The notes under the pieces: generated by a model
The model's input: only the letters and a program-made list of their open reading frames with translations
Database searches by the model: none
What the model was told of the DNA's origin: nothing
Source: Salinivirgaceae bacterium
GTDB taxonomy: Bacteria > Bacteroidota > Bacteroidia > Bacteroidales > Salinivirgaceae
NCBI GenBank assembly: GCA_002869335.1
Contig: PKTE01000072.1
Coordinates: 1 to 55,123 of the forward strand
DNA length: 55,123 nt
Direction: 5' to 3'
Made by a program: the position numbers and the translations under genes
Part shown: positions 89-33,199 of the stretch, piece by piece
Position numbering within the stretch: position 1 is the stretch's first letter
Layout: each line of letters opens with the position of its first letter

Positions 89-3000
89 CTATTTCAGATT
101 ACCTGCAACTACGCAAGTTCGTTTATCATATCCCTGGTTTCCATTTTCATCAAACCACTCACTGTATAATATGTAAATTCCCACGGGCACTTTATGTTGG
201 CTGTCGTTCGTTCCATCCCAGGTTACGAAGCCTTCGAGTGAAACGGTTTCGTTGTTCAATAGGTTGCGTACCAATCGTCCATTATGATCAAGGATTTTAA
301 TGGATAACACATTTCCACCAGTTTTAAATTGATAATTAATACGCAAATAATCTTCAAAACCATCACCGTCAGGACTAAGCGTTTCTTTTTCAAGTGAAAT
401 GTTATTCTCAGTTATTTCGGCGTTATTGTATTGACTGTTCTCCCTTGTTGGCGTGGCAAAACCCACATCTGCGGCTGCTGAATGCCAGTTTGAGCGATTA
501 TCGGAAGGGCTGAATGGAGAAATTCTCTCCAATGAAACACCATCTTCATCGTCTAGCAGGCTGTGGTGCATATCAGCCGAATATGTTACCTGATCAACAA
601 TATCACCTGAATAATTCATCAGTAAAATTGTTCCTTCATCATCGGGCATGGAAGGTAAATTGGTCAGGATCGATTTTTTAGGATCTACATTCCCATAGGC
701 CTCTTCCAAACATTCCGTTGATTCTGTGAGAATGTAATATTGATTAGGTGGTAAAATATAGGCATCTTCAGCTACTTCGTTAATTGTGTTTGGATAACCT
801 GATGCATCAAGGTTGGCTGAATATAATTTACTCAAAGCCAGGTAATTGTCTGTTAGATTAAACACTTCTACAAAGTCGTTGCAATTGGCTGGCGGGTTGA
901 ATAATATTTCGTTGATGATTAAATCGCCCGGTTCTGCTGAAACAGGTTTTTTAAATGAGAAATCTGTCGCCTCCATTTCATTCATATTGCAATCGGTAAA
1001 ACGGCTCAAACTGATATTGTAAAGGGTATTATCTTCTAATGGCTCTTTTAATTTTAGAATTAGATCTTCGCCTTTTGGATGAGGAATAAAAATCGAATCA
1101 AATTGCTGTGATGTAGCTATTAAACCATTACTCACATCTGGCCACATTGATTCATCGAATCTTATCATTAGACTTGTGTCTTCAGGTATTAAAATGAACT
1201 GAGCTGTTGGAATGGTTTCGTCTGGATTATCGCCTTTAAGGGTGTTTTCAGTACCTGGGGTTCCTCCTTGTGTTGCTGTACTTGTTCCCCAGTTATCGCC
1301 TTTGTCGCAGAAGCGATTATTATCAATTCGTTCTAATGAAAATCCTCCTAATGTTGCCAGCGAATTGGTATGCCAGGTATCATCATAATCTATCCATGTT
1401 ACCAGTTTGTTATTGTCATCCAACAATTGTAGCATAGTTCCACCATCAGTCAAATCAGACTCGTCGAAAATATATATCGCATTCTCAGGTGCATTGGGAA
1501 ACGATGCCATGTATTGTGGCAGAATTAAATAATAGCTTTGGGCAGGAATTGAACCAGTGGGTAGGTTAAGATCCCGACTTCCAACTTTAAGTGTCCAGTT
1601 CTCTATGCTTACCGGCAACGTATCATGGTTGTATAATTCCAAATATTCGTATTGAATACGTTCTTCATCGGCTGGTTTAGCCATTATTTCAGTGAAAATA
1701 ACTTGCTGAAAATAGGAGGGAACAATGTAGGTTGAGGCAAAATCAGCCTCAGTTGTATTACCACAATAATCTGTTAAATCTAAAACAACTACTTCAATGT
1801 AAGTTCTTTGAGGCAGTGAGTCTCTGGTGTAGATATGTAGCTTTTTTAAATCCTCTTCATCAACAGTCACAGAATCTAATCCAACTGAATAGTTAACTTG
1901 AATGTCTATTTCATAACTTGGTAAAGTTTCTGAAAATGTCAGGATTATCTCTTTTTCAGAAGCAATTGTCATTTCTACTATATAAGGAGCAATGGTGTCT
2001 GGATTTAAATCATCCACGGAATTAATTTCTCCAGGAGTTCCTCCCAGACTAGAGGTTGACGCTTTCCAGTTGTTAGCCTGGGCACAAAATGCATCGGGGT
2101 CAATTTGTTCAATACTCCAGCCACCATCTTCTTTTTCAGGATCATGGTACCATGTTTGGTTGTATGAGATAGTATGAATTGATTGCCCTGTGGTATCTTT
2201 TAATGTGATGAGTTTGCCATTATTGCTTAGTAATGATGTTGTAATTATATCAAGCGCATTTCCATATAAAGCATAAGCTTCAACAGCTGATGACGATGTA
2301 ACAATGAGGTATTCATTAGCTTCTAATGTATAATCGGGGAAAGTACGCGTGTCATCTCCTATTTCTATTGTCCAATTTTCGAGATTGATGTCAAAGCCTG
2401 AGCGGTTATATAATTCCAGATAATCATATTCTGGCAGCGCCACCACGGGACTATTGTCAAAAAATACCTCATTAATAACGATATCACCTTCCAGTGGAAT
2501 AAAATAAACGAACTGAACAGATGTGTCATTGATGATATTGCCTTCAAGATCTACAATCCCGCTAATGTTAAGCGTTTCAGTTTCTCGTAATGGAAAGTCG
2601 TTAGCAAATTGTAGTTGAATTTGTTTACCGGCTTCTGCCACTGTATATGCTGACGGGTTGCCGGTTAGGGTTGTTGAGAATTGTGTAAGTTCAAGTTGTA
2701 TTGTGTCTATGGGTTCAGTAAATGTGACTTGCAATTTATTGCTGCTGAGCGTTTTTATATCTTCCAGTGCAGGTGGAATGGTATCATAAATAATTTCACC
2801 TGCATAAATATCATCCATATAAACCACTCGTGTGTCAGAAGGGGTTGAAATATTTGTCACAAGACCAAAATAGTTGCCTGTTTGTATCTCATTGTCGGTG
2901 GAAGTACCACGTAATGTAACAGCTTGTTCATAAGCTCCTTCATCAATATATAATGACCAACCTTCTGCTGTGTCTCGCGTAATTCTTACCGAATATGGGA

Positions 3001-4489
3001 TAGAAGCACTACCATCAGTCCCAACGGGGTAGGTTGTGGTGATTATAGGAGTTGAAACCGTTCCTTTTTGTTTGTAAAGTACAAATGAATCATCTGAACT
3101 ACCATCGTATCGCAAATAGTAGCCGTAAAAATTTGGATTATCAGCTTTCAATAATGCAGGTTCATTTGTGTTGGCGGTAAGTATAACGTAATAATCGTTT
3201 GTGCCTGAAATATTCCATCCATTTCCATCTGCCACAGTGAAGCTCCATTGACCATAATTTCGGATGAGTTCGGTAGTAATGCATCTTGATTCTGTATTGA
3301 TTTTGCTTCTTAAGAGTGCGCCATCATTTTCATAGGTTGCACTAAATCCTCCATTGCCTTCTGTTGGTGGATTAATTATCTCAAAATCGGCTGTGTCACC
3401 TGTCCATTGGAGATTATTAATGAGATCAAGGTCGGTAAATGATTCGTTAATATTTTGGTTGAGGAGGTCTGAAACGGAAAATTGGATACTTGTATCAGTG
3501 ATGTTACCTAATAGGTCTTCAACTCCGTTAATTAATAGTGTATAAGCTGCTCCCGAAGTAAAGCTTTCTGCAAATGTAAGCTGAACTTCAGTTTTTGATT
3601 CAAAATAATATATGGCTTCGTTGGCGTTTCCGGGACCTTGAATATTATAATTTGATGCAGTATGAGACGATACGGAGTCTATTAATTCATCAAATGTTAG
3701 CTTGATGTTTCTTTCTCCATTTATCTGAATATCAGTGATTACTGGAGCGTATGTGTCTACGTATGGGGCACGAGTGATTATGTTGTCGATATAAGCAGTG
3801 CGAGCTGTTCCGGGGTTGGCTATATTTGTAGCAATTCCAAAAAATGATGAAGTTGTTACTTCATTATCTACTATTGTTCCTCGACTAGTAGTTGACTCCA
3901 GATAAAGTCCTTCATCGATAAATATTTCCCAGGTTCCATCATTTTCTCTGGTAATCTTAACGCTATAGGCCTCTGAAGTAGTTCCATCAGTACCGTCCGG
4001 GAAAGCCGCATCAATAAGAAGGGTTGTGGTTGTACCGCTTTGTTTGTTGAAAGTGAAGTTATCGCCATTGGCACCATCAAATCGGAGAAAATATCCGTTG
4101 AAGTTTTTTGTATCATCTTTCAGTAATGCAGGATCATCAGTATCACTCATTATTATGACGTAATAATCGTTAGAGCCTGAAATAGCCCATCCGCGTCCAT
4201 CTGCAATGCTAAATAACCACTCGCCGTATGCTCTTGAAGAGGCTGTTGTGAGCACTGCACTGGTGCTATCAGGTTTTGAACGCAACATGTGGGCATCTGG
4301 GCCCCATGAGATGTCAATACTTCCATCGCCTGAGTTTGGTGGATTGATAACCTCAAATTTATTGGTGTCGCCATTCCATTGAGGATTGTTTGTGAAATCT
4401 GAGTCGGAAAAGGTTTCGTTGATTTGGGCTTGAGAATATAGTCCAAAACTTAAAAATAGTACGGTAAATATTGCTGCGAATCTCATCAT
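89..4489 (-). CDS. Large secreted multidomain protein with lamin-tail-like and Ig-like repeats and a FlgD-like / gliding-type C-terminal domain
   Basis: 1466-aa ORF with signal peptide (MMRFAAIFTVLFLSFGLYSQAQ); repeated GDIVINEVFFDNS..DYLELYNRSG..LENWTIEIG blocks (LTD-like); C-terminus SPDGDGFEDYLRINYQF..ILDHNGRLVRNL..W DGTND..VPVGIYI. Confidence 0.75.
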   Translation of the reverse strand: MMRFAAIFTVLFLSFGLYSQAQINETFSDSDFTNNPQWNGDTNKFEVINPPNSGDGSIDISWGPDAHMLRSKPDSTSAVLTTASSRAYGEWLFSIADGRGWAISGSNDYYVIIMSDTDDPALLKDDTKNFNGYFLRFDGANGDNFTFNKQSGTTTTLLIDAAFPDGTDGTTSEAYSVKITRENDGTWEIFIDEGLYLESTTSRGTIVDNEVTTSSFFGIATNIANPGTARTAYIDNIITRAPYVDTYAPVITDIQINGERNIKLTFDELIDSVSSHTASNYNIQGPGNANEAIYYFESKTEVQLTFAESFTSGAAYTLLINGVEDLLGNITDTSIQFSVSDLLNQNINESFTDLDLINNLQWTGDTADFEIINPPTEGNGGFSATYENDGALLRSKINTESRCITTELIRNYGQWSFTVADGNGWNISGTNDYYVILTANTNEPALLKADNPNFYGYYLRYDGSSDDSFVLYKQKGTVSTPIITTTYPVGTDGSASIPYSVRITRDTAEGWSLYIDEGAYEQAVTLRGTSTDNEIQTGNYFGLVTNISTPSDTRVVYMDDIYAGEIIYDTIPPALEDIKTLSSNKLQVTFTEPIDTIQLELTQFSTTLTGNPSAYTVAEAGKQIQLQFANDFPLRETETLNISGIVDLEGNIINDTSVQFVYFIPLEGDIVINEVFFDNSPVVALPEYDYLELYNRSGFDINLENWTIEIGDDTRTFPDYTLEANEYLIVTSSSAVEAYALYGNALDIITTSLLSNNGKLITLKDTTGQSIHTISYNQTWYHDPEKEDGGWSIEQIDPDAFCAQANNWKASTSSLGGTPGEINSVDDLNPDTIAPYIVEMTIASEKEIILTFSETLPSYEIDIQVNYSVGLDSVTVDEEDLKKLHIYTRDSLPQRTYIEVVVLDLTDYCGNTTEADFASTYIVPSYFQQVIFTEIMAKPADEERIQYEYLELYNHDTLPVSIENWTLKVGSRDLNLPTGSIPAQSYYLILPQYMASFPNAPENAIYIFDESDLTDGGTMLQLLDDNNKLVTWIDYDDTWHTNSLATLGGFSLERIDNNRFCDKGDNWGTSTATQGGTPGTENTLKGDNPDETIPTAQFILIPEDTSLMIRFDESMWPDVSNGLIATSQQFDSIFIPHPKGEDLILKLKEPLEDNTLYNISLSRFTDCNMNEMEATDFSFKKPVSAEPGDLIINEILFNPPANCNDFVEVFNLTDNYLALSKLYSANLDASGYPNTINEVAEDAYILPPNQYYILTESTECLEEAYGNVDPKKSILTNLPSMPDDEGTILLMNYSGDIVDQVTYSADMHHSLLDDEDGVSLERISPFSPSDNRSNWHSAAADVGFATPTRENSQYNNAEITENNISLEKETLSPDGDGFEDYLRINYQFKTGGNVLSIKILDHNGRLVRNLLNNETVSLEGFVTWDGTNDSQHKVPVGIYILYSEWFDENGNQGYDKRTCVVAGNLK

Positions 4490-10212: not shown

Positions 10213-12171
10213 ATGAAGAGGATTTTAATTCTTTTTACTGGTATTGTATTGTCTTTTCAGTTGTTTTCGCAAGGAACGCTTATGCTTGTAGGTGGTGGAA
10301 CTGAACGCACTGGAGAAGATGCATGGAATTTTGAGCCCTATCGAAAAGCAGTGGCATATTCCACTAATAAAAGAGTAGCCATTATTGCCTGGGGAGCAGA
10401 ATCAGATAGTTGGTTACGCGACTATTTTACTGGAACTTGTAATGCAAATACAGCCAAACATTTTGATTTTAGCATCATTGATCCTTCAGACTACAATACT
10501 ATGTATGATTCGCTCATGACTTATGATATGTATTTTTTCAAAGGAGGTGATCAAAATGATTATTACAGCAACTTTAAAAATACTGTTATTGCAGATGCGA
10601 TTACTGATAAATATAATGAGGGAGGAGTAATTTCAGGAACCTCTGCGGGTATGGCTATTTTATCTTCAGTGATGTACACTGCTTCCAACGGTACGGTTTA
10701 TCCCTATGAAGCTATCTAAAATTATGAGAATACATATATGACATTGGCTGACGATTTTGTAGACCTGGCCCCCGGATGGTTATTTGATACGCATTTTGCT
10801 GAGCGTGGTCGATTTCCGCGTTTGGTTGGACTCATTACAAACTGGTATTACAATCATACAGAGCAGTTAACTGGACTTGGTGTAGACGATGTCACGGCTA
10901 TGATTATTAGAAACGATTCTGTTTATGCATATGGAACTGGCGCCGGTAACTTTTTTGATATTCAAAATACCGTTTTTGATCAGAATGAAACCATGGTTGT
11001 GGCTGAAAATATAAAAGTTACCAATATTTTGAATGGTTGTACATATGATCTTTCAACAGGAAATATTGAAGGTTTAACACAAGTTTCAAGCCCGGCAATT
11101 ACAGAAGAAAATCACACTTATACACTACTTTTAGGTGGGGGCATTTATTCAACTTATCATTCACAAATGATGGAAACATTGGTAAACGAGTGTGGAAACA
11201 TTAGCGATAATGTTCTATTCATAACCGGTGCTTCTTCAACCAATGCAGCAGGACTTGTGAATTCTGTGGAATCAGCTTCTACAGGAACGGTTTATGAATT
11301 TGAAGGTATAGCTGCTAATGCTAATTCCAGTGAACTTGCAGATGCTATTGCCGCTGCTTCAAAATTCGTATTTGTAGATAATGAATATGACACTTTTATG
11401 GATTTTATGAATAATACTGCTAGCGGATATAGGTTATTGCTTAAAATGAAAGATCCGGCATCAACCAGTGCTTTTGTTGGAGATAATAGTCGGTTTGTTG
11501 GGGCAAGTGTTATCAATAATTATGAAACTGCTGCGGCCTCATATTATGCTGAGCTTACCTTTGATCCGGGTTTGTCTTTATTGGAAACAACTGTTGTAAT
11601 GCCTAAATCATTTATGAACAGTGATATGTATGAAAATTCTACAACAGGAGTACCTTATGCCATGCTACAGGATGGATTAACTTATGGTATATGGTTAAAT
11701 AAAAAGAACTATGCTAAGTATTTTGTGGATAATGATGGGGTAAAACTTATTCCTTTTGGCGATTCTCCAGTAATGATAATGAAAAACGAAGGAACCAATT
11801 ATGATTTTTCGGTTACAGGAAGTACCGCCAATCATGATCCAAGGATGGTTGCCGGATTCGAAGAGATGACATTAAATGTTTTAAATAGTACAAAAAGCTT
11901 TGTGATGGGTACAAATCCTGGTGTTGGAATCTCAGGCTATTTGAAAGATTCCGAATTTACAGTTTACCCAAATCCAGCATCAAATATTGTATATTGTGAG
12001 TCGGAAGAAAATTCTTTATTGGAAATTTACAGTATTGATGGTAAATTGCTTAAACGTTTTGGTGGACAAAAACGTTATGAGGTAAACATTGCTGATTTTG
12101 ATTCCGGTATTTATTTATTTAAATCAACAGTTAATTCAAATTCTGTGATACGAAAAGTAACGGTTCAATAA
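10213..12171 (+). pseudogene. Secreted cyanophycinase-like (peptidase S51) protein with T9SS sorting domain, interrupted by one in-frame TAA at 10717-10719
   Basis: ORFs 10213..10719 and 10738..12171 are in the same frame (offset 525 nt). First has signal peptide, VGGGTERTG and GGVISGTSAGMAIL; second continues with DLAPGWLFDTHFAERGRFPRLVGLI, a second S51-like domain lacking GTSAG, and a C-terminal FTVYPNPASNIVY...IYLFKSTVNSNSVIRKVTVQ sorting domain. Confidence 0.85.
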
Positions 12172-12182
12172 ATTATAATAAC

Positions 12183-13340
12183 ATGATGATACTGATTAAA
12201 AATGCCGAAATATATGCTCCAAAACCAATGGAAAAAAAGGATGTGTTGGTTGCAGGAGGTAAAATTATATCGATACAAGATAAAATAGATGTTGGAAACC
12301 TGGAATTAGAGGTGATAGATGGAAGTGGTTTGAAGCTTACACCCGGGTTTATTGATGCCCATGTGCATATTGCAGGTGCGGGCGGCGAAGGTGGTCCGGC
12401 AACACGTACACCCGAAATTCCTTTGTCGCAACTATTGGAAGCCGGGGTAACTACTGTAATAGGCTGTCTTGGAACTGATGGCATGACTCGCAGTGTGGAG
12501 AGCGTATTAATGAAAGTCAAAGCGCTCCGTGACGAGGGAATGTCGGCATGGATGTACAGCGGTTCTTATCAAGTACCCACACCAACCATTACGGGTGAGG
12601 TGGGTTCGGATGTGGCTATGATTGAGGAGGTTATTGGTATTGGAGAGATTGCATTGTCAGATCATCGTTCTTCAACACCAACAACTGCAGAGCTAATTCG
12701 CCTGGTTGAACATGCGCGGGTAGGAGGTATGTTAGGCGGAAAAGCAGGTATTGTGAATATTCATATGGGGGACGCTAAAAATCCTTTCCAACCAATTTAT
12801 GATGCATTGGCTCAAAGCGAATTGCCAATCAAACAATTCTATCCAACGCATTGTAATCGAAACAATTATATTTTTGAAGATGCAAAAGAATACGGCAAAA
12901 AGGGGTGGGTAGATATTACCACAAGTAGTTATCCTTATTTTAAGGAATATGAGATAAAACCTTCTAAAGCCCTGGCAGAGTTTTTAAAGGCCGGAGTTCC
13001 TGAAGATCATATCACTTTTACTTCAGATGCCAATGGTTCTTTACCTGGTTTTGATGAAACCGGAAATTTGGTGAAAGTTGAAAAAGGATTACCAATGGCA
13101 AATCTCACAGAGCTACGTGATGCTGTTTTGGTAGAAAAAGTACCTTTTGAAACTTCCCTAAAAGTGCTTACTTCTAACCCTGCTGCTGCATTGAAATTGA
13201 AGCAAAAGGGAAATATTTTTGAAGGAGCAGACGCTGATTTATTGTTAATGAACGACAACCTGGAAATTCAGCACGTAATTGCCAAAGGCAAGCAGGTTAT
13301 GAAAGATGGAAAGCTTTTGGTTAAGGGAAGCTATGAATAA
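12183..13340 (+). CDS. iadA: Beta-aspartyl (isoaspartyl) dipeptidase
   Basis: Amidohydrolase motifs TPGFIDAHVHIAGAGGEGGPATRTPE, GVTTVIGCLGTDGMTRS, GIGEIALSDHRSSTPT; very IadA-like. Confidence 0.9.
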   Translation: MMILIKNAEIYAPKPMEKKDVLVAGGKIISIQDKIDVGNLELEVIDGSGLKLTPGFIDAHVHIAGAGGEGGPATRTPEIPLSQLLEAGVTTVIGCLGTDGMTRSVESVLMKVKALRDEGMSAWMYSGSYQVPTPTITGEVGSDVAMIEEVIGIGEIALSDHRSSTPTTAELIRLVEHARVGGMLGGKAGIVNIHMGDAKNPFQPIYDALAQSELPIKQFYPTHCNRNNYIFEDAKEYGKKGWVDITTSSYPYFKEYEIKPSKALAEFLKAGVPEDHITFTSDANGSLPGFDETGNLVKVEKGLPMANLTELRDAVLVEKVPFETSLKVLTSNPAAALKLKQKGNIFEGADADLLLMNDNLEIQHVIAKGKQVMKDGKLLVKGSYE

Positions 13341-13365
13341 AATATTTAAATCATCAATAAAAAAC

Positions 13366-13390
13366 AAAGCCCGACAATTTGCCGGGCTTT
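13366..13390 (-). terminator. Intrinsic terminator downstream of the susD-like gene
   Basis: AAAGCCCG-acaatttgc-CGGGCTTT with T-run on the minus strand. Confidence 0.85.
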
Positions 13391-13411
13391 AACATATCTC
13401 TAAAAATTATT

Positions 13412-14782
13412 TTATTCTTCATCCCACCATACACGTGCTTGCATATTTACACCTGTTGATGGCACGTTTCCTCCATTCAGTTCCATTTCATTTTGTGGGT
13501 ATGGATATCTTCTTGGAATTTCACCGTTAGGATTTTGTGCTGAAGTTCCGTTAGGATTTGGTATTAAAGCCGGATAACCTGTTCTTCTGAAATCTGACCA
13601 CTGTTCAACTTGTCCAAACATGCTAATGTATTTTTGCATCATAATTGTTTCCAGGTCAGCTTCGTAATTTCCAGTTAGCGTTATATGGGAAACATAACTT
13701 GAAATACTATCAGTCGTTAACTGGTCGTCGAATGGAGCAACTTCAGTTAAGAAAGCCTCCACAGCTTCACGAAGAGCAGTTTGAATCAGCGGATCAGTAG
13801 TATTTGTTCTCAATCTGGCTTCTGCTTCAATAAACTTAACCTCCCAAGGGGTTACAAAATATGCTTTTGCATTTAAATCACTTAAATATGGCCCTGTGTC
13901 AGCCGAGCCTAACTGAGTTTTAGTGATTCCATCTTTTGATGGATGACTTGCAACAAGCGTTTTGAAATAATCATTGATGACTAAATCTGTATTGTTTTTA
14001 CCTATGTTATAAGGACTCTTATCGGCCTCGTCATAACCGTACTCGTAAGCCAATGGCATATCGGTGTAATCATAAGAGTTTTGAACTGCATTTAATGTTT
14101 GTTGTAACGGATCGAAGCCAACTTCTGCTGATTTATTTACCACATGCAAAGAGTAACGCGCTATAAGACCATAGGCAGCTTTTTTCCATAAGGTAACGTT
14201 TCCTCCATAAAGGATGTCGTAATCAGATGCATCCATGGTAGATTCTTTGTCAAGATTTGCTATTCCATCATTTAATAATTCAAAAATATCCTCATAAATG
14301 TCACTTTGAGCGTCATAAGTAGGAGTTAGTGCTAATGATCCTTGTAGTGCCGTTGAATATGGTACATCTCCCCAATTGTCGGTTACGGTACCCAATGTCC
14401 AGGCCATCATAATTTGTGCAATACCTGTGTAGTGATAAGCACCCGCTGATTCTGATTTTTCAATAATATCTTTAATTTGAACCAGAGCATTTACGTAGTA
14501 ATCATACCAAATGTCTTCCACATAAAAGCTATTATCTACAAAATATTCAGCATAGGGTGAATATTGTGTGTTATTGTTGGGTTCAAAATATTGAAGAAAA
14601 ATACCAACTGTTGCTGAATTTTCATTCATTAGTGCATTAGCCATAGAAGCTTGAGCTGGCGGTAGAAGTACTGTAACTGGAGCTTCTATTACTGCGTTTG
14701 GGTTCTCATTTACTTCCTGTAAATTACAGGAGAATGTAATAAGAAGTGTAATTATCGTAATTAGTTTTATAAAGTGTTTCAT
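13412..14782 (-). CDS. SusD/RagB-like outer membrane lipoprotein (SusD_2-type)
   Basis: Lipobox LITFSCN; NPNAVIEAPVTVLLPPAQASMANALM; C-terminal WSDFRRTGYPALIPNPNG..IPRRYPYPQNEMELN. Confidence 0.9.
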   Translation of the reverse strand: MKHFIKLITIITLLITFSCNLQEVNENPNAVIEAPVTVLLPPAQASMANALMNENSATVGIFLQYFEPNNNTQYSPYAEYFVDNSFYVEDIWYDYYVNALVQIKDIIEKSESAGAYHYTGIAQIMMAWTLGTVTDNWGDVPYSTALQGSLALTPTYDAQSDIYEDIFELLNDGIANLDKESTMDASDYDILYGGNVTLWKKAAYGLIARYSLHVVNKSAEVGFDPLQQTLNAVQNSYDYTDMPLAYEYGYDEADKSPYNIGKNNTDLVINDYFKTLVASHPSKDGITKTQLGSADTGPYLSDLNAKAYFVTPWEVKFIEAEARLRTNTTDPLIQTALREAVEAFLTEVAPFDDQLTTDSISSYVSHITLTGNYEADLETIMMQKYISMFGQVEQWSDFRRTGYPALIPNPNGTSAQNPNGEIPRRYPYPQNEMELNGGNVPSTGVNMQARVWWDEE

Positions 14783-14795
14783 AGTAGTTCCGTTT

Positions 14796-17700
14796 TTAGA
14801 AGTTCATTTTAATAGTAAATGAATATGACCTCACGCTTGGCATATTGAAATAATCACGTCCCATACTGTTTGAAACGCCCGAAAGGTTGGTTTCCGGATC
14901 AATACCTTTGTAGTTTGTAAAGAGTAAAAGATTATTTCCAGATACTCCAAGTGAAAGTCCTTTAATAGGCAACTTTTCAATTGTTTTAGCAGGGAAGTCA
15001 TATGTTAGACTAAGTGTGCGTAATCTAAGCCAGGAAGCATCTTCGATGGCATCTTCACTTACTCCTACAAGTCCATAGCTTTGGTAATAATCCCCCCATT
15101 TAACAGGAGTCGAGTTTTCAATCCATTCTTCATTTACATCGTCCCAAACAACACCATTGAATGTTACTTCTTCGTCTCTGTTTTCAGTATCGGCATGTGT
15201 TCCAAGGCTTCTCATCACATTTGCAGTACCGTTATACACATCGCCTTTATATTTTATATCGAATAAAAAGTCAAGCGTCCAGCCTTTGTAGGTAAAGGTA
15301 TTGGTAATACCCATTGTCCAATTTGGGTTGGGGTTACCGACAATTCCACTTACACTATCAACTTCTGGTAATCCATCGGCTCCTATCACTCTCCGTCCAT
15401 CTTCGGTTCTCATCCAACGTGTACCATATAAAATTCCGTATTCTTCACCTCCGATAAATACACTCTTTGTAGAGGCAACACCTGCATTATCAGCTACTTC
15501 AAGAAAATCTATATCTTTAACCACATTTTTGTTTTTTGCAAAATTTACTCCGACTTCCCATTTGAAATCATTTTTTTCTACAGGGGTTCCAGTTACAAGA
15601 AGCTCAATTCCGTTATTAATAACTTTTCCATCAATATTCTGAAGTAATTGAGCATATCCGGTAGAGTATGCAACTGTAGCTGGTACAATTTGGTCAGTAA
15701 CATTAAAATTATAATATGTGAAATCTACATTTAATCTACCTGTGAAGAAACGCAGATCTGTACCTATTTCAATTGACCTTGTATCTTCAGGTTTTATATT
15801 ATAATTACCCATATATGAATCAATATAGTAAGATGTTAAACCGTGCGTTGTTCCGCTTGGAGTATAATAATTATAAAGGTTATAAGCTGGAGCATCCATG
15901 GCTACATGTGCATAATTGGCTCTTAATTTACCGTATGACAAGTATTTATTCTTTTCCATGCCAAATGTTTCAGTAAAAATCCATGATGCATTAACTGATG
16001 GATAAAAGAATGAACTGTTTTCTTCACTCAAAGTTGATGACCAGTCATTTCTACCTGTTGTGCTCAGGTAAAGATAATTTTTGAAATTAATCTTAGCTTC
16101 ATAATATAACCCAACAATTCTTTTTCTAGAAGTGTAATCATATTGATTGTCTACCGTTTCTACATTTGATATGTTGTAGTAGTCAGGGATTATGAAATTT
16201 GTTCCTTCCATTGTAGTACTGTAATATCTTGTGGCTTTATAGTTATGACCTGCCAATACAACTATCTTCCAATCGTCGTTTAATTGTTTTTCATAATTAA
16301 ATAGTAAATCAGAGTTTATGATGCGTTCTTGAGATTGATCAACGTAAAGTACACCATCGCCATAAAAGTTTTTTGACCCATTTGACCAATATGTTAAGCC
16401 ATTATCAGTGAATTGATCGATACCTACTCGATATGTGGCTGTAAATCCATTGAATAGTTCTGCATTGAAATTTAAGCTACTCATAAAGCGGTCACTATTA
16501 AAATGAGCCTGATTTTTATTGATTGACCAGTATGGGTTGTCAGTGTCATTATACCAGGTTCGCTGTGAACCATCAGGGAACATATACGAAGCTGAATTAC
16601 CTACAGGGTCGCTCACATTGTTTGTAATGTCAAAAGAAACAGGAGATCTCATTAAACCAAACATCACGCCACTGGCATTTGAACCTCGGTTGAGTTTAAC
16701 GTTTGCAGTATTTGAATAGGACATGATTCCATTCATTTTTATTTTATCTGAGAGTTCTGTTCCTCCACTTATTTTAAATGTGGCGCGCTCAAATTCACTA
16801 TTTGGGATAATACCTTTATGATTTACGTATCCGCCTGAAGCCATATAATTTGCGACTTTTCCTGCACCACTAACGCTTACATAGTTATCTGTTTTTACAC
16901 CAGTATTGAAAAAATTAGAGACATTATCATAAGCATTTATTCTTTTTGCTCCGGCAGGAGCGTTTTCGGCAGTTACAATCGCACCATTAACATCATATGG
17001 GTTTTCAATAGATGGATCATAATAAAGCGTTGATAAAAGCGGTCCCCATGATGCTCTTTGTGCTTCTGGACCTTCATAAGTTGGAGTTCCATCAAGTGCC
17101 CAAAATCCTTGAGCATATTTATCCTGGCGTTCAGGTAGCTTATTTACATTCTCAAAAGTAACGGAAGATTTTATAGTTATATGTGTGCTTTTTTCTCCTG
17201 CTTTACCTTTTTTTGTTGTTATCATGAGTACGCCATTACCAGCTTCTATACCATATAAAGCAGAGGCAGAAGCTCCTTTTAACACACTGATTGATTCAAT
17301 ATCTTCAGGGTTTAGGTCTAAGCTTCGACTAGTTTGCCCAGTAAGCGAAGTGTTTGATGTTGAATTGCTTATGGGGATTCCGTCGACAACAATTAAAGGA
17401 TAGTTGCTACCTCTCAAAGATGAACGTCCTCGAATAGCAATGTTGGCAGCTGCACCAGGTTCACCAGAATTTTGTGTGATGCTTAATCCAGCTACACGCC
17501 CTGAAAGCTTGCTAACTAAATCTGACGATGTAGTTTTTTCTAGAGTGCTTTCATCTACATTTTGCGCAGCATAGCCAAGCTCTCGTTTTTCTCGTTTAAC
17601 ACCAATTGCCGTAACCACAACATCTTCTAACAATTGTGCATCATCAGCCATTGTAACGTTTATTGTGCTTCTGCCTTGAATTTGCTCTTCAACGGTCTTC

Positions 17701-17933
17701 ATACCTATAAAACTGAAGACCAAAACCTGGGCATCATCTTTAACCTGGATAGAATATTTACCATCAGGACCCGAAATTGTCCCTTTTGAAGGGTCCGATT
17801 TTACTATTACGGTTACTCCTGGAAGTGGCATATTAGAACCTTTTTCCGTTATTGTACCAGTAATAGTTTTTTGACTAAATGCATAGGCATTCAGTGCAAA
17901 AAATAAAATACTTAATAGTAATTTTTTGCTCAT
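14796..17933 (-). CDS. SusC/RagA-family TonB-linked outer membrane protein
   Basis: Carboxypeptidase-like domain (ITGTITEKGSNMPLPGVTVIVK), plug motif (IAIRGRSSLRGSNYPLIVVDGIPISN, SVLKGASASALYG), C-terminal VRSYSFTIKMNF. Confidence 0.95.
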   Translation of the reverse strand: MSKKLLLSILFFALNAYAFSQKTITGTITEKGSNMPLPGVTVIVKSDPSKGTISGPDGKYSIQVKDDAQVLVFSFIGMKTVEEQIQGRSTINVTMADDAQLLEDVVVTAIGVKREKRELGYAAQNVDESTLEKTTSSDLVSKLSGRVAGLSITQNSGEPGAAANIAIRGRSSLRGSNYPLIVVDGIPISNSTSNTSLTGQTSRSLDLNPEDIESISVLKGASASALYGIEAGNGVLMITTKKGKAGEKSTHITIKSSVTFENVNKLPERQDKYAQGFWALDGTPTYEGPEAQRASWGPLLSTLYYDPSIENPYDVNGAIVTAENAPAGAKRINAYDNVSNFFNTGVKTDNYVSVSGAGKVANYMASGGYVNHKGIIPNSEFERATFKISGGTELSDKIKMNGIMSYSNTANVKLNRGSNASGVMFGLMRSPVSFDITNNVSDPVGNSASYMFPDGSQRTWYNDTDNPYWSINKNQAHFNSDRFMSSLNFNAELFNGFTATYRVGIDQFTDNGLTYWSNGSKNFYGDGVLYVDQSQERIINSDLLFNYEKQLNDDWKIVVLAGHNYKATRYYSTTMEGTNFIIPDYYNISNVETVDNQYDYTSRKRIVGLYYEAKINFKNYLYLSTTGRNDWSSTLSEENSSFFYPSVNASWIFTETFGMEKNKYLSYGKLRANYAHVAMDAPAYNLYNYYTPSGTTHGLTSYYIDSYMGNYNIKPEDTRSIEIGTDLRFFTGRLNVDFTYYNFNVTDQIVPATVAYSTGYAQLLQNIDGKVINNGIELLVTGTPVEKNDFKWEVGVNFAKNKNVVKDIDFLEVADNAGVASTKSVFIGGEEYGILYGTRWMRTEDGRRVIGADGLPEVDSVSGIVGNPNPNWTMGITNTFTYKGWTLDFLFDIKYKGDVYNGTANVMRSLGTHADTENRDEEVTFNGVVWDDVNEEWIENSTPVKWGDYYQSYGLVGVSEDAIEDASWLRLRTLSLTYDFPAKTIEKLPIKGLSLGVSGNNLLLFTNYKGIDPETNLSGVSNSMGRDYFNMPSVRSYSFTIKMNF

Positions 17934-17973
17934 ACAAATAAATTTTGTGGTTGTGAAAAAGTATCAGAAAGCA

Positions 17974-18003
17974 TAAAGGTAAAGAAAATGTTAAAATTCC
18001 AAA
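17974..18003 (-). promoter_or_regulatory. Candidate Bacteroidetes-type promoter for susCD
   Basis: On the minus strand TTTG, 18-nt spacer, TACCTTTA (near TAnnTTTG), about 40 nt upstream of the susC start. Confidence 0.4.
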
Positions 18004-18140
18004 TAGTTTAGTTAAAAAATTAATGTGCACAAAAAAGGTTATAACGTTTTTTTGGTATATGAAAAAAATCTTTTTACCTTTCGTTATTATTTGCGAAAGC
18101 AAACGAAATCATTTTATTTTTTTAATTAAATTTTTGTCCT

Positions 18141-19004
18141 ATGAAGAAATCGATTTTTACAATTATCGGTCTCCTCGTTGTGTTCGTACTTAACGCACAG
18201 GTGACTAGTTATGAGCAGGATTTTGAAGTAAATCCTTTGTTAATGCCAACTGAAATCACATTGATAAATGTTGACGGAATGCAGCCAGATCCAACACAGA
18301 GTGCAGGTTATGCTGATAGTGCCTGGATTATTGGTACGAGTGCTACTTTTGGCTCTCAAATAGCTAAAGCAAATTCATGGCACGTAGATGAGGTTGGTGA
18401 TGCTGATGATTGGATGATGATGCCTACTTTTTCAATTACGTCTGATCAAGCTACTGTTTCATGGGATGCAATGTCATTGACATCTTCTGGAAACTATCCA
18501 GATGATTATATGGTAATTGCAGTTGAAGCTCCAGCTGAAGCGCCTGCTGATACTGTTGATTATGTATTGACAAATGGTACTATTTTGCAGCAAGTTACAG
18601 CTGAGGCTTATGAGGCTCCTGTACATTATGAAATTTTACTTTCAGATCATAGCTTTGCTGCTGGTCAGGATATTTGGGTAATTTTTCGTTTAACTACTCC
18701 TGCTCCGGGTGGAAGTGAATTGGGTATTGATAATATTATGCTTAGTAATGGTACTGGTATTAATACTTCTGTTGAGAGATTAACCGGTCTGTATCCCAAC
18801 CCTGTAACTGACGGATTTGTTACTATTGATGTTCCTGCCAATAAAGCTAAGGTTCATATCTTTGATTTAACTGGTAAATTAATTCAGGAAAGTGAATTGA
18901 ATGGTTCAAATGTATTGAATGTACAAGATGTAATTTCTGGAGCTTATATTGTGAAAGTAACTGCTCAGAATAAAGTTTACACCACAAGAATGATTGTTGA
19001 GTAA
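18141..19004 (+). CDS. Secreted choice-of-anchor-J-like protein with T9SS type A sorting domain
   Basis: Signal peptide; YEQDFEVNP...DDWMMMPTFSI...ELGIDNIML; C-term TGLYPNPVTDGFVTIDVPANKAKVHIFDLTGKLIQE..AYIVKVTAQNKVYTTRMIVE. Confidence 0.75.
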   Translation: MKKSIFTIIGLLVVFVLNAQVTSYEQDFEVNPLLMPTEITLINVDGMQPDPTQSAGYADSAWIIGTSATFGSQIAKANSWHVDEVGDADDWMMMPTFSITSDQATVSWDAMSLTSSGNYPDDYMVIAVEAPAEAPADTVDYVLTNGTILQQVTAEAYEAPVHYEILLSDHSFAAGQDIWVIFRLTTPAPGGSELGIDNIMLSNGTGINTSVERLTGLYPNPVTDGFVTIDVPANKAKVHIFDLTGKLIQESELNGSNVLNVQDVISGAYIVKVTAQNKVYTTRMIVE

Positions 19005-19030
19005 ATCAACTATTATATAATTAGTAATAA

Positions 19031-19057
19031 AAAACGGGGCCTAAACCCCGTTTTTTT
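19031..19057. terminator. Bidirectional intrinsic terminator
   Basis: AAAACGGGG-cctaaa-CCCCGTTTTTTT between convergent genes. Confidence 0.9.
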
Positions 19058-19931
19058 ATTTTACCATATTGTAAGTGTCACCTGGAAGTAGAATGCTTAG
19101 TTTTAAGTCATTTGCCCCAAGTAGCCCATTTTTGTTGACTTTGCTTCTTTCAGGGTTTTCTATTACAATAACCTGACTTTTACCATATACTGTAAAATTG
19201 TTGCTTTTGACGTAAATAGCCGTTGATTCATCAATACCAACTGCTATTTCTTCGGGGTTTTCAATAGCTACACTCATTAACCTGTTCATGCGCATTCTCC
19301 AAACAAAATGCTGGTCAACAATGAGTTTGTCAGTGAATCCCATTCCTTCTTTTATTTCGATATTTTCTGCTTCAATAGTGCGGAATTCTCCTGTATATTC
19401 AGGGTGTTTATATTCATTCCCAGTTATCATTTTTTTACTCATAATGGCCGCTCCGGCACTGGTTCCTGCAATAGTAGCTCCATTTATATAGGCGTAATGC
19501 ATCGCATCATAAATAGGTGTATTTTTAACAATTCCCATGAACTTATTCTGGTCACCCCCTGATACATATATCAAACGGGCATTTTTAATGGAGTCAATCT
19601 TATCCTGAGCTGGCTTTTCACCTTTTTCAAAGTTGAAATAAGTAACATTTGTAATATTTTGCTTTTTGAACTGTCTCATGGCCCACCATGCACTTGTATC
19701 TGGTTCTGAGCTGGACATGGGCAAAACAACTATATAACCACCTTTATCAACTTCACTAAGTTGAATAAGATCTTTTACTAGTGCAGGCGGTCTTTTTCCT
19801 CCTCCAATAATAAATAGAGCTCCTTTTGTTTCAATTTTAGTTGTGGTCTCTTTTTTCGATTCTTCTTTTAGGTTATCACACGAAGAAAAAACAATGGCCA
19901 AGACTATTAAGCCTGCTATTACTTTTTGCAT
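19056..19931 (-). CDS. Cyanophycinase-like peptidase S51 lipoprotein
   Basis: Lipobox IVFSSCD; IIGGGKRPP, VSGGDQNKFM, GATIAGTSAGAAIMS nucleophile motif, DKLIVDQHFVWRMRMNRLM. Confidence 0.85.
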   Translation of the reverse strand: MQKVIAGLIVLAIVFSSCDNLKEESKKETTTKIETKGALFIIGGGKRPPALVKDLIQLSEVDKGGYIVVLPMSSSEPDTSAWWAMRQFKKQNITNVTYFNFEKGEKPAQDKIDSIKNARLIYVSGGDQNKFMGIVKNTPIYDAMHYAYINGATIAGTSAGAAIMSKKMITGNEYKHPEYTGEFRTIEAENIEIKEGMGFTDKLIVDQHFVWRMRMNRLMSVAIENPEEIAVGIDESTAIYVKSNNFTVYGKSQVIVIENPERSKVNKNGLLGANDLKLSILLPGDTYNMVK

Positions 19932-26608: not shown

Positions 26609-27358
26609 ATGAATGAAGAAAACCAATTTCACATTAGCTTTTTCAAACCTACAACTGAAAGGGCAAGAAGAAATCGAAATAAGGTCGTTGTCCTGGTTTC
26701 TATCTGGGCAATTGCCGTTTTTGGTTTCCATTTTTTATTGAAAGCCATTGAAAAACCTACACCTGAGCCTGTTTTACTAGAGTTTAATAAGGTTTGGGAT
26801 AAAGTGAAAGCTGATGAAGCTTCCACAGCCGAAATGCAGGTTTTTGCTAAAAGTGTATTGCAGGTTACAGGTAAGGTTTTTATTCAACCTAACCACAGAG
26901 CTGCATTCAATAATGGTTTAACCTGGGCTACATTTAAATTAGCTGATTCAGCTCAAAAAGTGGCTATCAAAGAGGCACTTGTGGATTTTGAGAAAGTAGC
27001 CAAAAATGTTGAGATGCTGACGGATGATAAATACCAAAGCGCAAAAAGTAAATTAGCTGCATTGGCGGCGGTTCCATTGGGATTAAACTCAAATGAATTG
27101 ATTGCTAAATTTTTGCCTTTGGAATTGAGGAGTAGCATGATGGATAGTTTTAGCGAAAAGCAAAAGGCTGTTGTGGCAGAAGCCATGCCTTTTTATACAA
27201 TCCATAATCAGTCGGTATTGACGGATACGAAATTTCTTGGATTTCCTTTCCATTATTTCTATACCGCTGTATTCTTGCTCATTCTTTTCATTGGGATTTG
27301 CTGGTTCTACAGTTATTCAACTGACCGTATCAACAAAAAATTGGGTATTTACGAATAA
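26609..27358 (+). CDS. DUF4212-like sodium/substrate symporter small subunit with large insertion
   Basis: TERARRNRNKVVVLVSIWAIAVFGFHFLLKAIE N-terminus and FLGFPFHYFYTAVFLLILFIGICWFYSYSTDRINKKLGIYE C-terminus flank roughly 150 inserted residues; followed by an SSS symporter. Confidence 0.7.
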   Translation: MNEENQFHISFFKPTTERARRNRNKVVVLVSIWAIAVFGFHFLLKAIEKPTPEPVLLEFNKVWDKVKADEASTAEMQVFAKSVLQVTGKVFIQPNHRAAFNNGLTWATFKLADSAQKVAIKEALVDFEKVAKNVEMLTDDKYQSAKSKLAALAAVPLGLNSNELIAKFLPLELRSSMMDSFSEKQKAVVAEAMPFYTIHNQSVLTDTKFLGFPFHYFYTAVFLLILFIGICWFYSYSTDRINKKLGIYE

Positions 27359-27379
27359 TTACTCCTCAAAATCGAAATT

Positions 27380-29050
27380 ATGAAGAAATTTATTATACCA
27401 CTTATCATATTATTGCTGCCAACATTAGCACAAGCTGCTGTTGGGGCAACACAACTTGAAGGAGGGTTCAAAGTGGGACCTTCAATTATCTTAATTGCTA
27501 TTTTAGTTACGTTTGTCTTGGTTGGAATATTTTTCCGCGCTAAAGACACTACAGACTTTTATGCTGCCGGACGAAGTATTTCAAAAGTAGGTTCCGGTAT
27601 GGCCATTGCATCTAACTGGATGAGTGCTGCTTCATTTTTAGGAATGGCTGCGCTTATGTATGGTTCTGGATATCATGGACTTGCTTATGTAGTGGGTTGG
27701 ACCGGAGGTTATGTGCTTTTACTTGTGCTGATGGCCGGACAAATCCGTAAATACGGAAAATATACAGCTGCCGACTTTATTGGTGATCGCTATTATTCGC
27801 AATCGATGCGTGCAGTGGGCGCTATTATTGCCATTCTGATCTCCATCTCATATTGTGTGGGACAGTTTGTAGGTATTGGGCTTATGTTTAAATGGATTAT
27901 GGGACTTGATTATCAATGGGCCGTTGTAATTGGTGGGTCTGTTGTATTGGCTTACACGTTAATATCAGGTATGTTAGGAGTAACTAAAAACATGCAGATT
28001 CAATATGTAATTATTATTATTTCATTCCTTATTCCACTATTTATTTTAATGTTCAAATTTGACTACTTCTGGGTATTACCGCAAATTGGTTATGGTTCAG
28101 TTGTAACAGACGTGGTTCAGGGGGTGCCAGTGAGCGATATTGCCGGTATGGTCAATTCCATGGGGCACGATTTTGCCATTGTGCCATCTCCTGAGTATGC
28201 TATGCCATGGGATCCATCAACTGGTAAAACATTCTTCCAGTGGATGGCTATTGCATTCTCACTAATGATTGGTACTGCAGGTTTACCTCACGTTTTACAA
28301 CGTTTTTATATTGTACCAAAAGCCAGTGATGCTCGTTGGTCTGTGGTTTGGGGATTGTTCTTTATTTGTATTTTATATTGGAGTGCTCCTGTGTATTCAG
28401 CATTGGGTAAAATATTATCAGCTAATCCAGAGGTTGGAAAGCTTGCCAAAGATGCCATTGTAGTGTATACGGCTCAATTGGGTGATGTAAATCCTCTGAT
28501 TGTGGGTCTGTTGGCTGCCGGAGGTGTTTCTGCAGCGTTTTCAACAGTTTCTGGACTATTGGTTGCCGGAGCATCTGCATTTAGCCACGATTTATATGTG
28601 AAAGTGATTAATCCAAAAGCTTCACCTAAATTACAGTTAACCATGGCACGTGCCGGAACTATTTTGATGGCTATCATCGTGATTCTAATTGCAATTCTTG
28701 AACTTGGATTAATTGGAGAGTTAGTTGCTGTGGCATTTTCATTGGCCGGATGTACTATTTTCCCATTATTCTTACTTGGAATTTGGTGGAGTGGATCAAA
28801 TCGTCAGGGCGCCATTGCCGGACTTATTGTTGGAGGATTGGTTTCATTGATTGCCATCTTGTACTTTATTGCCGGTAAACAAGGCATTGAATTACCATTT
28901 GCTGAGTTTATAGGATATTACTTACAAGCATGGTATTTTGCTTGGATTGGTGCTCCATTATCAATTTTGACTAACATTATTGTGTCGAAAATGACTGCTA
29001 AAACACCATTAGAAATCCGCAAATTCTTAGTTGAACAAGTACATAGTTAA
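27380..29050 (+). CDS. Sodium:solute symporter (cation/acetate symporter-like)
   Basis: FYAAGRSISKVGSGMAIASNWMSAASFLGMAALMYGSGYHGLAYVVGWTGGYVLLL; many TM segments. Confidence 0.9.
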   Translation: MKKFIIPLIILLLPTLAQAAVGATQLEGGFKVGPSIILIAILVTFVLVGIFFRAKDTTDFYAAGRSISKVGSGMAIASNWMSAASFLGMAALMYGSGYHGLAYVVGWTGGYVLLLVLMAGQIRKYGKYTAADFIGDRYYSQSMRAVGAIIAILISISYCVGQFVGIGLMFKWIMGLDYQWAVVIGGSVVLAYTLISGMLGVTKNMQIQYVIIIISFLIPLFILMFKFDYFWVLPQIGYGSVVTDVVQGVPVSDIAGMVNSMGHDFAIVPSPEYAMPWDPSTGKTFFQWMAIAFSLMIGTAGLPHVLQRFYIVPKASDARWSVVWGLFFICILYWSAPVYSALGKILSANPEVGKLAKDAIVVYTAQLGDVNPLIVGLLAAGGVSAAFSTVSGLLVAGASAFSHDLYVKVINPKASPKLQLTMARAGTILMAIIVILIAILELGLIGELVAVAFSLAGCTIFPLFLLGIWWSGSNRQGAIAGLIVGGLVSLIAILYFIAGKQGIELPFAEFIGYYLQAWYFAWIGAPLSILTNIIVSKMTAKTPLEIRKFLVEQVHS

Positions 29051-30754: not shown

Positions 30755-33199
30755 ATGCCAGGTAAAGGTCTATATAAATTTTTTGTGAGTATTGTATTGC
30801 CATCTATACTCGCTATCTTGTTGTTTGTCATTACATTCTTTGTAGTTATTATACCGCAGTTTGAAAAGAATTTACTTAATGCTAAAAAAGAGACAATTAA
30901 GGAATTAACCCAATCTGCATGGAGTGTGTTGGACGAGCATAGGCAGGAGGTGGAAGATAGTCTGTTAACACTTGATGACGCCCAGCAAAAAGCTGCGCAT
31001 CAGATTGAGAAAATGCGTTATGGTAAAAATCGAAAAGACTATTTCTGGATTATTGATATGCGTCCATTCATGGTGATGCATCCATACCGTACGGAGTTGA
31101 TGGGGGATGATCTGTCAGAGTATAAAGATAATCATGGAAATAAGCTTTTTGTGGAGGCTGTTGAGGTTGTGAAAAATAAACAAGACGGCTTTGTAAACTA
31201 TTATTGGCAATGGAAAGATGATACCACCCGTATTGTTCCCAAATTATCATATGTAAAAGGGTTTGAACCCTGGGGATGGATTATTGGTACCGGTATTTAT
31301 CTGGAAGATGTACGCGCTGAAATAGCCCATCTGAAAAATCGATTATTGTTGATTTCTGTAGGTATTGTTTTCATTATCATATTGATTTGGTTTTATGTGA
31401 TTAGGCAAAGTTTACGTATTGAGAATAGTAGAAGAGGGGCAGAGCAAAATCTGCGACTGTCGCGGCAGAAATATAAATCCCTGGTAGAGGCCAGTACAGA
31501 TGGCACACTAATGATGGTTAATGACGAGATTATTTATCATAATCTGAAATTCAGAAAGCTTATTGAGAAATCTCAGGAGGATGGGTCAAATTTGGTTTTT
31601 GATGAATTATTTTCGCAGAAATGGGATAATATAAAGGCAAGTATAAAACAGCCTGATAAGTCACACAGTATTGAGTCTAAACTGATTGTTTCTCCTACAT
31701 GTGCCAAAGATGTAGTCCTTACTACTTCAAAGGTAGATTACTCAGGATCAGAAGGATACATTGTGATTGTGAAAGATGTTTCTACCGATAGACAGATAAG
31801 TAAAGAGTCGCAGGAGCTGGCGCGTGAGTTACAATTGCCTATGCTCAATATGAGTAAACCCATTGCCGGAAATGTGCAGCCTCTTTATACTGTAACATAT
31901 GAAACCTCTGTACACGAGGTGGCTAAACTGATGAAGAGATATGAGACATCTGCAGTGTTTGTAACTGCTGGTGGACAAATTGTAGGAATAATAACCGAAA
32001 AAAATATACCCAGTAGAATTGTAGCAGAAGGAAAGGAATTGACTACACCTGCTTCGGAAATAATGACTGCACCGGTACTTTCTATAGAAAATACTGCACC
32101 GCTGTATAAGGCTTTATTAATGAGTTGGAAGGATCAGGCTACGCATTTATTGGTGAAAAATGAAAATGATGAACCTATAGGTGTAGTGAGTAGAAGTGAG
32201 CTATTGGAATTTCAGCAAAATAGCTTAGGTTTTTTATCGAAAGAGATATATTCAGCTGAGACCATTGCAGAACTGGTTAAATTACACAAGCGTGTGCCGG
32301 TATTGGTAAAAGCGCTGCTAGATAGTGGAAGCAAATCGAGCAATATCACCTACGTAAATTCTTTTGTTGCCGATGCTATTCATCATCGGGTAATAGAATT
32401 AGCCATTGAGAAATTGGGTGAACCACCAGCAACGTTTTGTTTTATGGTAATGGGCAGTGAGGGACGCATGGAAGAGACTCTTTATACCGATCAGGATAAT
32501 GCTATTGTGTACGAAGATAATGTGGCCGATGTCAGTTATTTTAATCAGCTTTCTAAGCAAATAACGGAAGATCTACACAAAATAGGTTATAACCGATGCA
32601 AAGGCGATATAATGGCCAGTAATGCTAAATGGTGCAAATCACTTTCGGAATGGAAGCAATATTTTACAGATTGGACCCAATCACCCGATCCGCAAAATGT
32701 GTTGGATAGTAGTATTTTCTTTGACTTCAGATGTGTGTATGGTAATATGCAGCTTTCTGAAATGTTGAGGTTTCATTTGAAAAAATTGACTCCAAAAAAT
32801 GGCTTATTTTTTTATCATATGGCACAATCGCTGAACCGTTTTAAACCAGTGATCAATAGTGAAACGGTGGATCTTAAAAAAATACTTTTCCCACTGGTGG
32901 GGGCCATTCGGGTTTATAGCCTACACTATGGCTTTAGTACCACAAATACAATTACTCGATTGAAGCAACTCACCGAAAAACTCGAGCGTGTTGATGTCAA
33001 AGAGGTGCTCTATATATACGATTTTCTTACCCGGAAACGCCTCGAAATACAAACCAATGCTATTATGAATAATGAGCCACCCGATAATATGCTCGACATT
33101 ACTACGTTAACCATTGCTGAACGTAAATTACTGGATCATGCATTTGCCAAAATCAATGAGCTCTTAACGGGGTTGAATATGGATTTTGCAAGATCGTAA
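30755..33199 (+). CDS. Cache-domain sensor with PAS-like region, CBS pair and DUF294 (GlnD-like) nucleotidyltransferase
   Basis: YFWIIDMRPFMVMHPYRTELMGDDLSEYKD (Cache), CBS pair around VHEVAKLMKRYETSAVFVTAGGQIVGIITEKNI, NTase motif MGSEGRMEETLYTDQDNAIVYED. Confidence 0.85.
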   Translation: MPGKGLYKFFVSIVLPSILAILLFVITFFVVIIPQFEKNLLNAKKETIKELTQSAWSVLDEHRQEVEDSLLTLDDAQQKAAHQIEKMRYGKNRKDYFWIIDMRPFMVMHPYRTELMGDDLSEYKDNHGNKLFVEAVEVVKNKQDGFVNYYWQWKDDTTRIVPKLSYVKGFEPWGWIIGTGIYLEDVRAEIAHLKNRLLLISVGIVFIIILIWFYVIRQSLRIENSRRGAEQNLRLSRQKYKSLVEASTDGTLMMVNDEIIYHNLKFRKLIEKSQEDGSNLVFDELFSQKWDNIKASIKQPDKSHSIESKLIVSPTCAKDVVLTTSKVDYSGSEGYIVIVKDVSTDRQISKESQELARELQLPMLNMSKPIAGNVQPLYTVTYETSVHEVAKLMKRYETSAVFVTAGGQIVGIITEKNIPSRIVAEGKELTTPASEIMTAPVLSIENTAPLYKALLMSWKDQATHLLVKNENDEPIGVVSRSELLEFQQNSLGFLSKEIYSAETIAELVKLHKRVPVLVKALLDSGSKSSNITYVNSFVADAIHHRVIELAIEKLGEPPATFCFMVMGSEGRMEETLYTDQDNAIVYEDNVADVSYFNQLSKQITEDLHKIGYNRCKGDIMASNAKWCKSLSEWKQYFTDWTQSPDPQNVLDSSIFFDFRCVYGNMQLSEMLRFHLKKLTPKNGLFFYHMAQSLNRFKPVINSETVDLKKILFPLVGAIRVYSLHYGFSTTNTITRLKQLTEKLERVDVKEVLYIYDFLTRKRLEIQTNAIMNNEPPDNMLDITTLTIAERKLLDHAFAKINELLTGLNMDFARS

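Follow-up and report, generated by a model that had tools for sequence, protein, structure and literature searches.

The 55,123-nucleotide window analysed here, positions 1 to 55,123 of contig PKTE01000072.1 from a Salinivirgaceae bacterium, probably carries a cyanophycin-scavenging locus of a Salinivirga-type member of the Bacteroidales. The locus contains genes for two S51-family proteins (S51a and S51b), an isoaspartyl dipeptidase (IadA), a SusC/SusD pair (SusCD), and a protein sorted by the type IX secretion system (T9SS). Its SusCD and T9SS-protein module appears to be a replacement, and the reading frame of S51a contains a stop codon. Cyanophycin is a large nitrogen store polymer in cyanobacterial mats, and no definition of a Bacteroidales route for its uptake was found in the literature searched. 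A sequence-only reading of the window had proposed that S51, IadA, and SusCD together degrade and import a cyanophycin-like polymer. That proposal is now supported by the conserved gene neighbourhood, by a SusC clade associated with it, and by an IadA shared with loci that hold cyanophycin synthetase (cphA) genes; the substrate, the transport, and the activity are putative.

In the pathway that we propose, cyanophycinases of the S51 family, located on the cell surface or in the periplasm, would convert cyanophycin to β-Asp-Arg dipeptides or short oligomers, and SusCD, together with TonB, would take these fragments across the outer membrane. An inner-membrane carrier encoded outside the locus, perhaps the DcuC-family carrier at G000:C236 (G000 is the genome of the window), would pass the dipeptide to a cytoplasmic IadA for hydrolysis to Asp and Arg. 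In the window a second SusCD and T9SS-protein module, which relatives carry beside a canonical pair, would have taken the place of the canonical SusCD and PKD/β-propeller surface protein. We infer the substrate, the direction of transport, the compartments, and the handling of the same product by the replacement SusCD.

The enzyme assignments rest on profile scores and on comparison with solved structures. IadA scores above the cut-off of its equivalog profile and matches the solved IadA 1onw with a phmmer E-value of 3e-102; it is presumably cytoplasmic, because no signal peptide is apparent. S51b exceeds the cut-off of the cyanophycinase equivalog profile, has both the Ser and His motifs, and matches the solved cyanophycinase 7uqv (phmmer E=9e-26). 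Its Ser, His, and acidic motifs, GTSAGA, DQHF, and GIDE, are invariant in 12 orthologs. No match to cphA was found in G000 at E<=1e-30, in an assembly that is 85% complete, which places the organism among the genomes without cphA1 as these are set apart in PMC10206079. On the same ground we rejected the reading that the S51 pair serves a cyanophycin store of the organism's own.

The association of S51 with IadA extends across the order. Among 295 Bacteroidales genomes, IadA is found in 48 and S51 in 65, both occur in 43 (Fisher P=1e-29). The two lie no more than 15 kb apart, the threshold adopted for linkage, in 27 of the 43; the P values given here and below treat genomes as independent, which genomes are not. 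Linkage on this scale rules out a chance grouping of S51 and IadA, and it supplies the conserved neighbourhood in relatives on which the sequence-only reading had made its proposal depend. The loci that were read fall into two kinds. One places S51 and IadA next to cyanophycin-synthetase-like genes (G038, G057, G040, G161, G134, and contig VGGL01000098); in G031 IadA adjoins such a gene, with no S51 within the stretch read. In the other, S51 and IadA occur with SusCD and with no cphA in the stretch (G002, G018, G025, G029, G037, G132, G150, G162, G176, G286, G123, G200, G220, G218, G274, and G080). Loci of this second kind usually encode a protein of the PKD/β-propeller or choice-of-anchor-J type, and they often include a DcuC-family carrier. 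Some of the loci have M28 and M14 peptidases beside them. The DcuC-family carrier (PF03606) recurs in loci L045, L049, L101, L104, L105, L107, L110, L111, L112, L113, and L116, and is a candidate for the inner-membrane importer of β-Asp-Arg. In one tree the IadA sequences of cphA loci and of SusCD loci intermix, which points to β-Asp-Arg as the product shared by both kinds.

The strongest support for assigning SusCD to the pathway comes from the association of a single SusC clade with these loci. All 18 SusC sequences taken from SusCD-type loci group together in a clade supported at 100%; the background SusC sequences set against them were the next-best matches and hence the nearest outsiders to the clade. 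A search with one member of this canonical clade identified 19 carriers in the 295 genomes. S51 is present in 19 of the 19 (P=3e-14) and IadA in 17 (P=3e-13); by coordinates, the canonical SusC is on the same contig as S51/IadA, within about 15 kb, in 16. In the literature searched we found no published statement of a SusC clade tied to S51/IadA loci. A clade confined to cyanophycinase genomes could serve to recognise cyanophycin eaters by sequence, and would add a non-ribosomal isopeptide to the substrates of SusCD.

The SusCD of the window is not of this canonical type. In G002, which like G001 belongs to the genus of the window by the genome sample, the canonical SusCD and a PKD protein lie between IadA and S51b, and G001 has the same arrangement on two contigs; a contig of G001 corresponds gene for gene to the Salinivirgaceae MAG record L033. 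The outer neighbours are the same in the window and in G002, DUF5686 on one side and Glyox-SDR on the other, and the SusC sequences found at the same place are 29% identical. In the tree the window SusC falls outside the canonical clade, in a separate and distant one, and its SusD is of the PF12771 type, as against PF07980/PF14322 in canonical SusD; the tree and the Pfam type together rule out that the window SusC is a fast-evolving ortholog of the G002 protein. Among solved structures the nearest SusC is BT2264, chain B of 5fq6 (E=6e-119), which comes from a peptide-bound complex (PMC7782687), and the window SusD also matches BT2263. A canonical SusCD was not found elsewhere in the assembly, where the best match is 35%, and the window holds no remnants of a canonical SusD or PKD protein. 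The earlier grouping of SusCD with S51 and IadA holds as a conserved association, but the pair in the window is not the type normally present in the locus.

The closest relatives of the window SusC belong to the second SusCD pairs of G029 and G142 and to one pair of G040, and the four make up a clade to which a class-level genome sample added no further member (best 43%). In G029 and G142 the window-type SusCD is convergent to the canonical SusCD, and in the window, G040, and G142 the window-type SusC and the mutually homologous T9SS proteins lie in divergent orientation. A single contig of G142 (L131:8158-19566, on G142:C61) displays the whole arrangement, the two SusCD pairs convergent and the window-type SusC divergent from the T9SS-protein homolog. 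G029, G142, and G040 each hold both S51 and IadA (P=0.003 across the three genomes, a value calculated with the clade already known). Our preferred reading, suggestive rather than settled with only four members, is that the canonical importer of the window gave way to a second cassette belonging to cyanophycin loci. More tentatively, and with somewhat less than an even chance, two unrelated SusCD systems may serve the cyanophycin loci of Bacteroidales, side by side in G029 and G142 or replacing each other as in the window, so that the importer is exchanged as a cassette and the hydrolases are kept. Such a swap would allow two importers to be compared in nature while the hydrolases stay the same.

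A different account of the same observations is that the SusCD and T9SS protein of the window belong to an unrelated uptake system that entered the locus and imports something else, while the cyanophycin function decays. It would explain the low identity to the G002 SusC, the missing canonical SusCD of G000, the interruption of S51a, and the position of the same module away from S51 in G040. We nevertheless regard it as unlikely, since sister SusCDs stand beside the canonical SusCD in G029 and G142, all three sister genomes hold S51 and IadA, and the IadA and S51b of the window are intact and conserved. Nor does the cassette have a foreign base composition: its GC content, overall and at third codon positions (GC3), is like that of its neighbours and gives no signal of recent arrival.

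The sequence-only reading had described S51a as a T9SS-type secreted S51 protein, a description that needs correction, for an in-frame TAA divides the gene. The first part (10213-10719) encodes 168 amino acids with a signal-peptide-like start and the motif GTSAGM. The far part (10720-12171) continues in the same frame for 483 further codons with no other stop, and holds the DTHF catalytic-His motif and a T9SS tail. Because the stop falls between the GTSAG nucleophile and the DTHF histidine motifs, neither half would have a whole active site. S51a is one open frame in both G001 and G002, and the window sequence differs from that of G001 mostly at silent positions, with a nonsynonymous divergence (dN) of 0.38 and a synonymous divergence (dS) of 2.3, near saturation. 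A recent lesion and an erroneous base in the assembly would both fit these observations. That the draft assembly is in error and the gene intact in the organism is an appreciable possibility that we place somewhat below even: apart from this stop the 653-codon frame is free of lesions, and the stop lies at a residue that is variable among relatives, but there is no direct sign of error, and the species is represented by one draft genome. A SusC-like gene elsewhere in the assembly (G000:C354:23511-26447) is also interrupted by an in-frame TAA, which is compatible with error or with real lesions alike. If the stop in S51a is real, S51b is probably the sole active cyanophycinase of the locus.

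Several features of the window weigh against a role in cyanophycin scavenging. S51a is interrupted in the assembly and, intact or not, falls below the cut-off of TIGR02069, scoring 79.5 bits in the window and 74 bits in the intact form of G002, so that neither its score nor its frame qualifies it as a cyanophycinase. The locus contains no inner-membrane dipeptide carrier, and at the completeness of the assembly the missing cphA is not proof of absence. The window SusCD belongs to a clade of only four members, and the G040 member is not near S51. Taken more widely, SusC sequences of the window type (38-42% identity) show no enrichment in genomes with S51 (4/16, P=0.48); enrichment is confined to the four-member clade. 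Furthermore, IadA enzymes are promiscuous (PMC10206079). This promiscuity, the score of S51a, the resemblance of the window SusC to the peptide-bound BT2264, and the M28 and M14 peptidases beside some loci would all suit a locus for the general salvage of isoaspartyl or acidic peptides left by protein degradation, in which the S51 proteins act as dipeptidases or exopeptidases, a SusCD of peptide type takes in oligopeptides, and IadA clears isoaspartyl dipeptides. With S51b above the cyanophycinase cut-off, however, with close relatives of IadA adjoining cyanophycin synthetase, and with the canonical SusC clade present only in S51 genomes, general peptide salvage seems distinctly improbable; the genus is, moreover, described as a scavenger of cyanobacteria (PMC6243061). 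Cyanophycin scavenging therefore remains the reading that we prefer.

Profile matches confirm the IadA, SusCD pair, T9SS-sorted protein, and S51 lipoprotein with intact GTSAGA that had been recognised from the sequence, each at the position first assigned to it.

Features of the cyanophycin-type locus in the window
Feature	Position	Strand	Evidence and remarks
S51a, T9SS-sorted S51 (cyanophycinase-like) gene	10213-12171	+	Peptidase_S51 in near part, Por_Secre_tail in far part; interrupted
In-frame TAA in S51a	10717-10719	+	Read directly; between GTSAG (Ser) and DTHF (His) motifs
IadA, isoaspartyl dipeptidase	12183-13340	+	TIGR01975, 488 bits against cut-off of 331
Terminator-like hairpin between convergent IadA and SusD	13365-13391	-	12 pairs; prediction only
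SusD-like lipoprotein, PF12771 type	13412-14782	-	Pfam match
SusC, TonB-dependent outer-membrane transporter	14796-17933	-	TIGR04056, 651 bits; tree
T9SS-sorted surface protein	18141-19004	+	Por_Secre_tail and choice-of-anchor-J domain; divergent from SusC
Terminator-like hairpin between convergent T9SS protein and S51b	19029-19056	+	11 pairs; prediction only
S51b, lipoprotein cyanophycinase	19056-19931	-	TIGR02069, 154 bits against cut-off of 126.6; GTSAGA

The use of both strands, with predicted hairpins between the two convergent pairs, agrees with the original view that the locus is not a single operon. Given these hairpins, four transcripts are expected: S51a-IadA, SusC-SusD, the T9SS protein, and S51b. 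A promoter scan did no better than on shuffled sequences. S51a and IadA are separated by 11 bases, whereas S51b and IadA are about 5.7 kb apart, pairwise beyond a 5 kb limit but within the same gene group; the window thus contains a cluster in the sense of PMC10206079, in which cyanophycinase and isoaspartyl dipeptidase genes are grouped with <=5 kb between genes. A transporter, which the same source also lists for such loci, is present as SusC and SusD, which may carry cyanophycin products. Sorting signals of the Por_Secre_tail type are found on the far part of S51a and on the surface protein. The translocon component SprA is represented in G000 by an SprA_N domain in a gene cut by contig ends, and T9SS export would, given SprA, be available to the organism.

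Elsewhere in the window, a 1466-residue secreted protein (89-4489, minus strand) contains a bacterial Ig-like domain and three lamin-tail domains, and has a weak CHU_C signal for T9SS. At 26609-29050 (plus strand) a sodium:solute symporter comes after a DUF4212 protein; together with a Cache-CBS-DUF294 protein at 30755-33199 they resemble an uptake pair of the acetate or carboxylate type and its regulator. Two large adjoining proteins on the minus strand (39018-41561 and 41801-44512) combine a Peptidase_S74 chaperone domain with trimerisation domains of the Gp34 type, like the tail fibres of phages, yet in a chromosomal setting. The 1045-residue protein next to them (44802-47939) has no Pfam or NCBIfam match.

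Comparison with known systems places the window among loci that have been described in part. S51b matches the cyanophycinases CphB and CphE (3en0, 7uqv, and 7uqw) over most of its length and shares the GTSAGA, DQHF, and GIDE motifs, but it has a lipoprotein signal and its sequence has clearly diverged. In the cphA-cphB-iadA clusters that serve cyanophycin biosynthesis and recycling, S51 likewise lies beside a closely related IadA (64-69% identity); the window differs in having no cphA, in its SusCD and T9SS parts, and in an S51 that is 25-32% identical. Compared with the peptide-binding SusCD complexes BT2263/BT2264 and RagAB, the window pair is nearest in sequence to BT2263/BT2264 and differs in its coupling to S51 and IadA.

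The closest precedent comes from strain L21-Spi-D4, which we take to be the type strain of Salinivirga cyanobacteriivorans. Ben Hania 2017 (doi 10.1111/1462-2920.13639, as cited in PMC10206079) described in this strain a "cyanophycin utilization locus" that comprises cyanophycinases, iadA, and a transporter, and PMC10206079 reports that cyanophycinase and isoaspartyl dipeptidase genes are usually clustered in genomes without cphA1. This locus kind is therefore already known in the genus, a point absent from the sequence-only reading, whose grouping of the genes otherwise stands. PMC6243061 credits S. cyanobacteriivorans with a pair of S51 proteins, of which one bears a Por tail, just as in the window. 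If G002 is this strain, the two loci share their outer neighbours as well. As far as these sources describe the L21-Spi-D4 locus, the window is a variant of the known kind, from which it differs in a SusCD of another clade and Pfam type, in a choice-of-anchor-J T9SS protein instead of a PKD protein, and in the interruption of S51a.
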